Translations under genes and position numbers: made by a program | Notes under the pieces: model-generated | The model's input: only the letters and a program-made list of their open reading frames with translations | Told to the model about the DNA's origin: nothing | The model's database searches: none | Assembly (NCBI RefSeq): GCF_014284275.1 | Contig: NZ_JACOFU010000001.1 | Span: 558,001 to 622,000, forward strand | Direction: 5' to 3' | From: Affinundibacterium amnicola | GTDB lineage: Bacteria; Pseudomonadota; Gammaproteobacteria; Burkholderiales; Burkholderiaceae_D | Length of the DNA: 64,000 nucleotides | In this document: in pieces, positions 28,792 through 32,672 of the stretch | Position numbering within the stretch: position 1 is the first letter of the stretch | How the letters are laid out: each line of letters starts with the position of its first letter

Positions 28792-30021
28792 TTAACCGCG
28801 CTTCAATTTTGCATTCGCTGCAATACGCATACGCAATGCATTGAGCTTAATGAAGCCACCTGCATCGGCTTGATTGTAAGCGCCGCCATCTTCATCGAAG
28901 GTCGCAATATTCATGTCGAATAAAGAGTCTGTTTTTGAATCACGCGACACAGTAATCACATTCCCTTTGTACAGCTTGACGCGTACCCAACCATTCACAT
29001 TTTGCTGTGTGTGATCGATTAATGTTTGCAATGCGAGACGCTCTGGCGACCACCAGTAGCCGTTATAAATCAAGCTGGCGTAACGTGGCATCAAATCATC
29101 TTTCAAATGTGCGACTTCACGATCTAAGGTGATGGACTCGATCGCACGATGTGCGCGCAACATGATGGTGCCGCCAGGTGTTTCGTAGCAGCCACGTGAC
29201 TTCATACCGACGAAACGATTTTCAACCAGATCTAAACGACCAATACCGTGTTTGCCACCGAGGCGGTTCAACTCAGTCAATACCGTTGCTGGTGACATGC
29301 GCACGCCGTTCAATGCCACGATATCGCCTTTTTCGTATTCGATGTCGAGGTATTCTGCTTGGTCTGGCGCCGCTTCTGGGCTTACAGTCCAACGCCACAT
29401 GGATTCTTCTGCTTCAGCACTTGGGTTTTCCAAATGACGACCTTCAAAACTGATGTGCAAAAGGTTGGCATCCATGGAGTAGGGCGCGCCACCGTTTTTG
29501 TGTTTTTGATCGATTTCTATGCCAGCATCTTCGGCATATTTCATCAATTTCTCACGCGACAATAAATCCCATTCACGCCATGGCGCGATCACTTTGACAT
29601 TTGGCATCAATGCGTAGGCACCGAGTTCAAACCGAACCTGATCATTGCCCTTACCGGTTGCGCCGTGAGAGATGGTATCTGCACCAGTTTGACGTGCGAT
29701 TTCGATCAAACGTTTGGCGATCAATGGACGTGCAATTGAAGTGCCCAATAAATACTCACCCTCATACACGGTGTTTGCACGGAACATAGGGAAAACGAAA
29801 TCACGCACAAATTCTTCGCGTACGTCGTCGATGAAAATGTTCTCAGGCTTGATACCAAATTTCAATGCTTTGGCGCGTGCTGGCTCGAGCTCTTCACCCT
29901 GACCTAAATCGGCAGTGAACGTGACGATCTCACACTGGTAGTTGTCTTGCAACCACTTCAAAATCACGGAAGTATCCAAACCACCGGAATACGCTAAAAC
30001 TACTTTTTTGACGTCGCTCAT
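28792..30021 (-). CDS. argG: Argininosuccinate synthase
   Basis: Joins citrulline and aspartate with ATP in arginine synthesis. 409 residues, short (type 1) ArgG. P-loop AYSGGLDTS is at 9-17; other motifs are [51 protein letters not shown] and [19 protein letters not shown]. Third gene of argD-argF-argG; 78 bases separate it from argF. Regulation likely comes from the arginine attenuator before argD if the transcript runs through; a separate promoter in the 78-base gap cannot be excluded. Confidence 0.97.
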
Positions 30022-30099: not shown

Positions 30100-31017
30100 T
30101 TAGTTGTCGACTTTGCCGATGACTAAATATTCAAGCAAAGCTTTTTGTACGTGTAGACGATTCTCTGCTTCATCCCAAACTACCGATTGCGGGCCATCAA
30201 TCACGCCTGCTGAAACTTCTTCGCCACGATGAGCGGGCAAACAATGCATAAAAATCGCCTCAGGATTGGCGCGAGCCATTTTTGCTTCATCCACAATCCA
30301 GCCATCAAAGGCTTTGAGACGGGCTTGATTTTCAGCCTCGTAACCCATGCTGGTCCAGACATCGGTATTGACCGCATCAACGCCAACGCAGGCATCGGAT
30401 GGATTATCGAACACCGTGTAGTGTTCAGCTTCCACCGTCACACAAGCAGGATCAATGTCATAGCCTTTAGGTGTAGAAATATGCAAATGAAAACCAAAAA
30501 CTTTCGCCGCTTGCATCCATGAATACAGCATATTGTTGGCATCGCCTATCCACGCCACTTTTTTGCCCGCGATAGAGCCGCGATGTTCAATGAAAGTGAA
30601 CACGTCGGCAAATACCTGACAAGGATGATGTTGATTGGTCAAACCATTGATGACAGGCACGCGGGAATTTGCGGCAAATTTTTCTATCATCTCTTGTTCA
30701 AAAGTACGGATCATGATGATGTCACACATGCGTGACATGACTTGACCGGCGTCTTCGACAGGTTCGCCACGACCGAGTTGGCTGTCACGTGTATTCAAAT
30801 AAATCGCTGCGCCACCGAGTTGATGCATGCCCGCTTCAAAACTCAAACGCGTACGTGTGGAATTTTTTTCAAATACCATGACCAGCGTTCTGTCTAAGAG
30901 CGGATGATAAGGTTCGTATTTCTTAAAACGATCTTTAATGATACGAGCTCTCTGCATCAGATAGTCGTATTCATCGAGGGTCAGGTCGGAGACCTGTAAA
31001 TAATGTTTGATAGCCAT
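30100..31017 (-). CDS. argF: Ornithine carbamoyltransferase
   Basis: Transfers carbamoyl from carbamoyl phosphate to ornithine, giving citrulline. 305 residues. The phosphate-binding STRTR motif is at 53-57 (FEKNSTRTRLSFE); the ornithine-side motifs are NGLTNQHHPCQ, WIGDANNMLYSW, and HCLPAHRGEEV near residue 270. It lies 26 bases after argD and before argG, an arginine operon. Its co-substrate is made by CarAB, encoded at 59329-63715 in the same window. Confidence 0.97.
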   Translation of the reverse strand: MAIKHYLQVSDLTLDEYDYLMQRARIIKDRFKKYEPYHPLLDRTLVMVFEKNSTRTRLSFEAGMHQLGGAAIYLNTRDSQLGRGEPVEDAGQVMSRMCDIIMIRTFEQEMIEKFAANSRVPVINGLTNQHHPCQVFADVFTFIEHRGSIAGKKVAWIGDANNMLYSWMQAAKVFGFHLHISTPKGYDIDPACVTVEAEHYTVFDNPSDACVGVDAVNTDVWTSMGYEAENQARLKAFDGWIVDEAKMARANPEAIFMHCLPAHRGEEVSAGVIDGPQSVVWDEAENRLHVQKALLEYLVIGKVDN

Positions 31018-31043: not shown

Positions 31044-32261
31044 TTATGATGCCGTCGATGCTGCTGCTTTTTCGTCTATCACCTGTTGGATGACTTTGCT
31101 CAACATAGAAATCATGGTGTCGATTTCTTCGTAGCTGACGTTTAGTGCCGGCATAAAACGGAGTAAGTTCGGGCGTGGAGAATTAATTAGTAAGCCAATT
31201 GGCTCCATATCACGGGCAACTTCGACCAAGCGTGGGCCAATATCGCTACCTAATTTCAGTGCGCGTAACAAGCCCTCACCGCGTTCGCCTTCCATTCCAA
31301 ATTCTGCTGAGAGGGTGTTGAGTGCTTTACTTAGATATACCGATTTTGCTTTCACTTCGTCCAAAAATCCTGGAGCGGTCAATGCGTTAATAACGGCTAA
31401 GCCAGCAGCCGTCATTAGTGGAGCGCCGTTGTATGTGCCACCTTGATCACCTGGTACAAAGCAAGAAACTTCTTCTTTCGCTAGCAAAGCAGCGAGTGGA
31501 ACACCACCGCCTATGCCTTTGCCCAAAGTCATGATGTCTGGTTCGATACCAGAAAGCTGATAGCCGAACAATTCACCTGTCCGTCCCATGCCGGTTTGAA
31601 CTTCATCGACGATTAATAAAATATTGTGTTGTTTAGTGAGCGCGCGTAAAGCTTGCATGAATTCGCGACTTGCAGGAATCACGCCGCCTTCACCTTGCAC
31701 AGGTTCTAGCATGACCGCCACAGTTTTATCACTAATGAGTTTTTCAACGGAGGCGATGTCATTTAAATCGGCTTTTGGAAAACCTGTTACCTGAGGTGCG
31801 AAAATGGTATCCCAGCCAGGTTTGCCGGATGCTGACATCGTCGCTAAAGTGCGACCATGAAATCCGTGATCGAAAGTAATGATTTCAAACGCGCCGTTTT
31901 TATTTTTTTGACCCCATTTGCGCGCTAATTTAATCGCACCTTCATTTGCTTCAGCCCCGCTGTTCGCAAAAAACACGCGGTCAAAGCAGGAATGTTGGGT
32001 GAGTTGGTCGGCCAGCTTGATCATGTTTTCGTTATAGAAAGCAGGAGAAGGATTTAGTAATTTGCCTGCCTGCGCGACGATCGCATCTTCTATGCATTTT
32101 GGCGAATGACCAAGGCAATTGACTGCCCAGCCTTGTAAATAATCGAGGTAGCGTTTGCCATTATGGTCAGTCATCCACATGCCTCGGCCCTCGGTAAACA
32201 CCAACTCAGGACGTGGTGTGATGTACATCAGGGCGTCGACGTTGTACTGACTAAATTCCAT
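31044..32261 (-). CDS. argD: Acetylornithine aminotransferase
   Basis: PLP enzyme that makes N-acetylornithine from its semialdehyde, and in some bacteria also serves lysine synthesis. 405 residues from ATG 32261, which has AAGGAG seven bases upstream; the longer frame adds nine residues without a ribosome site. Fold-type I motifs: [58 protein letters not shown], and the PLP lysine K248 in [12 protein letters not shown]. First gene of the operon; its 411-base upstream region holds an arginine leader, a terminator and a hairpin repeat. Confidence 0.95.
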
Positions 32262-32329
32262 TTCAAAACTCCTTAAAGATAAATACAAAGTAGGGTAGAA
32301 GATGTTACCGCAGAACTGACATTCATAGA

Positions 32330-32432
32330 ACTTACGTAAAACAGTCCCAGCGTTGTTGTCGCCGCCTCGCCGTGCTGAAGCACTGTCTTCGTCGGCACGC
32401 CTAGCTGGGACAATTTTGCATAAGTCCTAATT
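32330..32432. repeat. Dispersed hairpin element, copy B
   Basis: A nearly complete palindrome. Outer arms 32330-32341 and 32414-32425 match at 10 of 12; next, GTCCCAGC (32344-32351) pairs perfectly with GCTGGGAC (32404-32411); at the tip GTGC-TGAA-GCAC (32372-32383). It aligns along its length with 3484-3586. It is in the argD leader RNA between the attenuator terminator and the argD start, so readthrough transcripts would contain it. Confidence 0.7.
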
Positions 32433-32443
32433 CAAACATGCGC

Positions 32444-32538
32444 AAAAAAAAACCACAGGGGTTGAGCCTGTGGTTTTATCGTGACCTTGCTTTTCTTACG
32501 CGCAAGACTTCCCAGGCTCGGTGTGTGAACTGCGACGT
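32444..32538 (-). promoter_or_regulatory. Arginine attenuator: pairing segments and intrinsic terminator
   Basis: On the minus strand the order is: segment 1 GCTCG, overlapping the Ala-Arg codons; segment 2 CGAGCCTGGG (complement of 32511-32520); segment 3 CCACAGGCTC (complement of 32464-32473); segment 4 CCTGTGGTT followed by nine T (to 32444). Segments 1:2 share a 5-bp pairing, 2:3 a perfect 7-bp pairing (GAGCCTG with CAGGCTC), and 3:4 form an 11-bp terminator stem AAAACCACAGG / CCTGTGGTTTT with a seven-base loop. Segment 2 lies 12 bases after the three Arg codons. Geometry matches classic amino-acid attenuation; that it works so is inference. Confidence 0.75.
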
Positions 32539-32579
32539 CGAGCGATATTTGGGGAAGACATGTCAGTAAAATTTTTCAT
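32496..32579 (-). CDS. Arginine leader peptide (27 residues, Arg-Arg-Arg)
   Basis: Minus-strand ORF from ATG 32579 to TAA 32496. Codons 14-16 are CGA-CGT-CGC, three consecutive Arg within NIARRRSSH. An internal ATG at 32561 would give 21 residues with the same triplet. No Shine-Dalgarno is seen; a -10-like TACACT ends six bases before ATG 32579, so a leaderless transcript is possible. It precedes an intrinsic terminator and the argD-argF-argG operon. I do not recognise it as a known named leader. Evidence is context and codon content; translation is unproven. Confidence 0.65.
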   Translation of the reverse strand: MKNFTDMSSPNIARRRSSHTEPGKSCA

Positions 32580-32672
32580 GGGCGTAGTGTAACGGTTTTT
32601 TTGCGGTTTTGCGCACTGCAATACTGAAATAAATCAAAAAAAATGAAAAATAATTTCATCAATTTAAATAAA

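Follow-up and report, generated by a model that had tools for sequence, protein, structure and literature searches.

A probable arginine-sensing leader-peptide attenuator with a leaderless reading frame upstream of argD in two families of the Burkholderiales

How arginine biosynthesis is controlled is the question raised by a short leader that precedes argD, argF and argG in Affinundibacterium amnicola. The leader lies on the minus strand of the 64,000-nucleotide stretch that was analysed as a whole (the window; contig NZ_JACOFU010000001.1, positions 558,001 to 622,000). An initial annotation had proposed a ribosome-mediated arginine attenuator at this site, and the present analysis supports this reading: with considerable confidence, the leader can be regarded as an attenuator of transcription in which a ribosome, translating a leaderless upstream open reading frame (uORF), gauges the level of charged arginine tRNA. 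The leader recurs in two families, that of the window (first family) and that of genome G545 (second family), and its predicted antiterminator surpasses shuffled sequences in strength both among leaders of the window's genus and in the second family, though not in the remaining 64 leaders of the first family. Anatomy, conservation, codon constraint and in silico pairing competition are observed; from these, we infer the start of the RNA, its translation, the stalling of the ribosome and the response to arginine.

The elements on which the annotation had built its proposal are all in place (Table 1), that is, a 27-residue ORF with three successive Arg codons, an 11-bp terminator with nine T, two mutually exclusive pairings of segment 2, whose GAGCCTG begins 12 nt past the last Arg codon, and the argD-argF-argG genes, as named by NCBIfam. 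These genes make the very amino acid whose codons form the run, and an intrinsic terminator separates them from the uORF. Transcription would begin at about the AUG of the leaderless ORF. With ample arginine, the ribosome would pass the Arg run and reach the stop codon, where segment 2 would be either covered or held by segment 1; with segment 2 unavailable, the terminator would form and a short RNA (about 136 nt in the window) would be released. If charged tRNA-Arg is scarce, the ribosome would instead stall on CGA-CGY-CGY, cover segment 1 and free segment 2, which could then pair with the 5′ arm of the terminator and let transcription continue into argD-argF-argG.

Table 1. Features of the argD leader and its surroundings, in positions of the window.
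Feature	Position	Strand	Remarks
-10-like hexamer TACACT	32586..32591	minus	6 nt 5′ of AUG
Leader ORF, 27 codons, MKNFTDMSSPNIARRRSSHTEPGKSCA, stop included	32496..32579	minus	homologous ORFs in relatives
Arg codons CGA CGT CGC (codons 14-16)	32532..32540	minus
Segment 1, GCTCG, overlaps first Arg codon	32539..32543	minus
Segment 2, CGAGCCTG, partner of segment 1 or segment 3	32513..32520	minus
Segment 3, CAGGCTC, in terminator 5′ arm and loop	32464..32470	minus	antiterminator partner of segment 2
Pairing 1:2, GCTCG/CGAGC	32543-32539 with 32520-32516	minus
Pairing 2:3, GAGCCTG/CAGGCTC	32519-32513 with 32470-32464	minus
Intrinsic terminator, 11-pair stem (32477-32449) and nine T ending at 32444	32444..32477	minus
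MITE-like repeat in terminator-argD gap, imperfect inverted ends	32326..32429	minus
Shine-Dalgarno-like AAGGAG of argD	32269..32274	minus
argD, acetylornithine transaminase, ATG at 32261	31044..32261	minus	NF002985, 746.7 bits (cut-off 568)
argF, ornithine carbamoyltransferase	30100..31017	minus	NCBIfam
argG, argininosuccinate synthase	28792..30021	minus	NCBIfam

Upon scanning both strands, this proved to be the sole site of the window at which an ATG-initiated ORF of 10-45 amino acids with at least three consecutive Arg codons lies no more than 100 nt before a strong terminator. The same combination of ORF, Arg run and terminator was absent from 100 dinucleotide shuffles of the window, which is a weak null, since these shuffles hold just seven terminators in all. 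Folding a 171-nt segment that spans the leader gave an unremarkable stability (z -1.59), which 13 of 200 shuffles equaled or exceeded. The real evidence beyond chance is conservation rather than the window scan.

To assess conservation, 145 genomes of the window's family were screened for argD, and 78 regions upstream of close copies of this gene were read; G087, G066:C86 and G105:C329 (the latter two being fragments) and more distant paralogues, at about 40% identity, were set aside. The leader is present in 69 of these regions. Adjacent Arg codons occur in 68, in an ORF that ends just 5′ of a terminator with the arms GCCACAGG or ACCACAGG and CCTGTGG; genome G038 (locus L245, contig positions 16469-16587, minus strand) has the same promoter type, stop region and terminator and a single Arg codon, CGA (MNIQTKFNRGSTSLVQSGKPCA). 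Judged by the terminator pattern, no such leader precedes argD in nine regions (L017, L058, L065 and L071-L076). In several of the eight that were printed (all except L072), argD begins soon after the upstream gene, which suggests that the leader has been lost in these relatives.

A covariance model built from 61 leaders extended this picture. Of the 392 genomes of the window's family, 147 contain a match with an E-value of 6.2e-7 or better, at 148 places in all, and only these were counted. Among the weaker matches (171 of 392 genomes at E 0.01), the next two, in G254 and G040, are ordinary terminators. In the second family, 88 of 150 genomes matched at E 0.01, some of them falsely, and a leader with adjacent arginines (RR) was found in 46 of the 50 loci read, all of which had been picked by the model; the others are L309, L310, L322 and L323, with L310 and L322 being other terminators and L323 having masked bases in its start codon. 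An argD-like N-terminus is encoded downstream of 42 of the 44 printed leaders of this family, another frame coming first in L278 and L281 (the downstream-gene checks exclude L206-L244). Across the order, the model matched 34 of 399 genomes at E 0.001, including seven of the window's own family. Twelve loci were read from the other 27 genomes (those of 15 further genomes were set aside), of which L252 and L253 alone are true leaders, and none of the twelve adds a third family with the leader. A loose pattern scan of genome contigs yielded at least six loci with the leader ORF before argD (L098, L099, L106, L108, L173 and L188); nearly all of the other matches examined by script were unrelated. 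The leaders of Undibacterium L098 and L108 are identical to L006 and L208 from the window's genus, and that of Herminiimonas L106 equals L018. A plasmid search using the leader gave no match. The terminator arms read CCACAGG/CCTGTGG in the first family and CCACGGG/CCCGTGG or CCACGG/CCGTGG in the second. The alignment of argD upstream regions, which had been suggested as a check on the proposal, thus shows that in both families argD is preceded by the ORF, the Arg run and the terminator, and on this comparison the element is real and widely conserved.

Part of it has already been catalogued under another name. Rfam family RF02884 (BcKCsr7, 'Burkholderia sRNA 7'), filed as an sRNA gene, covers at model positions 1-157 the argD leaders of L302 (166.3 bits) and L314 (134.2 bits), whose uORFs contain four Arg codons. 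Scores below the gathering threshold of 59 bits were obtained for L276 (47.3) and L253 (26.7), L012, L020, L028, L057 and L080 gave no match at E 0.1, and the window itself has no Rfam match at gathering score. According to a review (PMC10987360), Bc_KC_sr7 corresponds to RIT34 and nc5U30, is 147 nt long, and is expressed in biofilm, decreased in worm infection and increased with organic peroxide. The distance from the AUG to the last U amounts to 147 nt in L302, 149 nt in L314 and 153 nt in L320. The agreement of L302 with the length of RIT34, which may stem from a different species, is consistent with a leaderless RNA. The term 'argD' is absent from those portions of the main texts on BcKCsr7, RIT34 and nc5U30 that were searched.

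A related situation is known from Sinorhizobium meliloti (PMC7298713), where the trpL/rnTrpL attenuator is transcribed from the AUG of its leader ORF onwards and the RNA released at the terminator is found as an sRNA. The argD leader resembles it in the terminated RNA occurring as an sRNA and in the probable RNA start at the AUG; it differs from rnTrpL in that the latter concerns tryptophan and that both its RNA and its peptide act in trans. An extension of this parallel, which we consider rather unlikely, would be that the switch reads CGA as such, with slow decoding by an inosine tRNA-Arg providing the most sensitive gauge of charging, and that the released leaderless, ORF-bearing RNA acts in trans as rnTrpL does, RF02884 representing the trans form. 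The Rfam entry of the Burkholderia homologue and its own expression changes could also be taken to indicate an independent transcription unit, either a small RNA or the mRNA of a small protein, with a promoter and terminator of its own and with argD transcribed from a different promoter. We regard this as very unlikely, as the leader sits before argD in both families, as the same RNA is listed as nc5U30 and the 'short 5′UTRs' defined by Sass 2017 (PMC5688073) are products of processing or attenuation, and as a consensus scan of the window found no promoter match between terminator and argD (the same scan also misses the leader's own promoter). This reading is further disfavored by a peptide that differs between groups beyond the Arg run.

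The attenuator reading instead draws on the Arg codons themselves. Parsed without preference for CGA, the run opens with this codon in 67 of 68 first-family leaders. In the set of distinct leaders (n=145, with identical leaders counted once and L245, a false parse of G038, left out), CGA comes first in 144, a count that leans towards CGA because the parse of the later loci preferred it; the exception is L055, with CGT before CGA. For comparison, CGA accounts for 99 of the 849 Arg codons in 48 ORFs of the window. The run itself receives no further test from the 145 leaders, because they were selected for RR. It was also considered whether base pairing explains the constancy of the A in CGA. This idea was dropped for the first family, in which no base of the run, or hardly any, is paired less than this A; its pairing is 0.29 in the window's genus (defined here by 'SSPN'), 0.35 in the rest of the first family and 0.58 in the second family.

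By contrast to the codon, the peptide is kept only within groups, as PLPxPGxPCA or, in the window's genus, as MSSPNIA...EPG. After the Arg run, it differs between groups and between the two families, and in several it ends within a few residues (e.g. MNRILSALRRRRLPE), which is easier to reconcile with a codon sensor than with a functional peptide. The start of the run ranges from codon 7 to 22 (the false row L245 excluded). These features bear on a SpeFL-like nascent-peptide arrest, which would rely on a conserved peptide able to sense arginine, ornithine or a polyamine. In the Salmonella speF leader, two adjacent Arg codons of the uORF orf34 couple arginine to the downstream gene (PMC6386406). 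A conserved peptide domain takes part there together with Rho and RNase G, and no intrinsic terminator was found. That leader controls an ornithine decarboxylase gene, whereas the argD leader has an intrinsic terminator. That a gene of the arginine pathway is preceded by a short RR-containing ORF, and that the peptide is conserved within groups, would suit such an arrest; it is nonetheless highly improbable here, given that the peptide does not appear to be conserved beyond the Arg codons from group to group, that the position of the run varies and that the most constant feature is a codon, CGA.

For the proposed attenuator, the decisive structures are the alternative pairings. In general, segment 1 overlaps the Arg codons (in most relatives), segment 2 lies in later codons of the ORF and segment 3 is the 5′ arm of the terminator. 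Compared with dinucleotide shuffles, the energy of pairing 2:3 has a mean z of -2.36 in the window's genus (here L001-L007 and L206-L238; 23 of 40 leaders at p 0.05), -1.84 in the second family (19 of 41) and -1.01 in the whole first family (25 of 104). For the 64 first-family leaders outside the genus, 2:3 is not stronger than in shuffles (mean z near -0.2, with p 0.05 reached by 2 of 64, as derived from these counts), nor did its duplex energy exceed shuffles in the first 68 leaders (z -0.28; 5 of 68). Grouped at 80% identity, 39 of 47 sequence clusters have a negative mean z. Moreover, cognate segments pair better than permuted partners, both for 2:3 (p 0.0003 for each family and overall, 0.0013 for the genus) and for 1:2 (p 0.0002), relatedness being not fully controlled in either comparison. 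The arm and segment 2 also change together between groups, from GCCGUGCGC with GCCACAGGC to GCCUGGG with CCACAGGC and GGCCUGGC with GCCACGGCC.

The initial annotation had named covarying 2:3 and 3:4 stems as possible support, and this check was borne out in part. Pairing 1:2 and the terminator together yielded 15 double-change cells as compared to 4.8 in shuffles, 10 of the 15 at one pair. On the same alignment (A1), on which the arm hardly varies, 2:3 gave 5 versus 4.1 and hence no excess. Most members of the window's genus have a further hairpin just 3′ of the Arg codons, with 6 double-change cells versus 1.4 in shuffles; the window's own copy has lost one pair. RNAalifold consensus energies for 35 gapless leaders were weak (-1.0 and -3.0 kcal/mol). 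On these sequence data, an antiterminator 2:3 beyond chance is supported by the genus, the second family and the permutations, and not by the energies of the other 64 leaders or by covariation on A1; a protector 1:2 that may compete for segment 2 finds moderate support.

The states of the switch were modeled by folding the RNA as far as the loop of the terminator while a ribosome masked the 5′ sequence. In the window, the predicted probability of the terminator's 5′ arm being paired upstream is 0.66 for a ribosome stalled at the Arg codons, 0.09 for one at the stop codon and 0.65 for none. The respective means are 0.73, 0.12 and 0.42 in the genus (leaders with 'SPN', which takes in L050 of another genus and omits L236), 0.65, 0.09 and 0.13 in the rest of the first family, and 0.76, 0.34 and 0.41 in the second family, in which the contrast between stalled and stop states is thus smaller. 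Pairing is higher in the stalled than in the stop state in 137 of 145 leaders, and in 142 of 145 the stalled value lies above the average obtained with shuffled spacers; shuffling lowers it to 0.44 (genus), 0.48 (rest of the family) and 0.56 (second family). Since the arm of the window is largely sequestered even without a ribosome, an untranslated leader is predicted to read through, which in this model speaks against a strict classical scheme in which lack of translation means termination.

The promoter region adds to this picture. First-family leaders typically have TTGACG-17-TAATAT or similar; in the second family, TTGACA or TTTACA is combined with a -10 box resembling TATTCT or TTATAT. 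A gap of 6-8 nt separates the -10 box from the ATG in 144 of 145 distinct leaders, a count that leans upwards because the choice among start codons favored those preceded by a -10 box at about 7 nt. The RNA therefore very probably starts at or beside the AUG, which would make the uORF leaderless. Unlike most relatives, the window has no clear -35 box in a consensus promoter scan. Conservation in the first family reaches beyond the -35 and -10 boxes. A stretch reading GCAGTGCGCAAAAC or similar (about 32592-32625, minus strand, in the window) is kept even in the sub-clade without TTGACG, to which the window belongs and in which the distance to the -10 box is longer; this stretch may be a candidate regulator site.

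The initial annotation had pointed to ArgR as the usual alternative in arginine genes. From each family, 60 genomes were searched for the domain of the E. coli/Bacillus-type ArgR (Arg_repressor_C, PF02863), and none of the 120 gave a match, whereas the same search matched 8 of 14 control genomes, E. coli included; its scope was this type and not the AraC-type ArgR of Pseudomonas. A repressor of the E. coli/Bacillus type thus appears not to be encoded in these genomes. As a further alternative, the terminator that follows the translated ORF could be constitutive, the pairings being due to GC content, and control could come from a repressor of whatever identity at the conserved promoter. This would suit the conservation beyond the two boxes and the antiterminator of those first-family leaders that does not exceed shuffles, but it is scarcely credible, as it leaves the Arg codons, CGA and the cognate-partner signal unexplained and as E. 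coli-type ArgR, the sole repressor type covered by the search, was not found.

Classical leader-peptide attenuators control the trp, his, leu, thr, ilv and phe operons. The argD leader shares with them the short ORF with codons for the regulated amino acid, the alternative hairpins, the intrinsic terminator and the biosynthetic operon downstream; it differs in concerning arginine, in its probably leaderless uORF, in a segment 1 that overlaps the regulatory codons and in the nearly invariant CGA. For arginine, a passage of PMC1262725 names T-boxes, attenuators being named there for histidine, threonine and phenylalanine. Among the texts searched, mostly open-access and in part, none describes an arginine attenuator before argD. 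Leader-peptide attenuation for arginine has apparently not been described previously, priority being not certain. If the proposed mechanism is true, arginine joins the amino acids sensed in this manner, two Burkholderiales families without detected E. coli-type ArgR gain a mechanism for arginine feedback, and RF02884, an Rfam sRNA family whose function has so far been blank, becomes a cis-regulatory leader. The argD leader could also offer a clean test of whether codon identity (CGA) or the amino acid alone sets the sensitivity of an attenuator.

Finally, the gap between terminator and argD measures 182 nt in the window as compared to 55-89 nt in six other members of the genus. It harbors the MITE-like repeat of about 100 bases, which has 19 matches in its own genome, itself included, and probably lies outside the mechanism.
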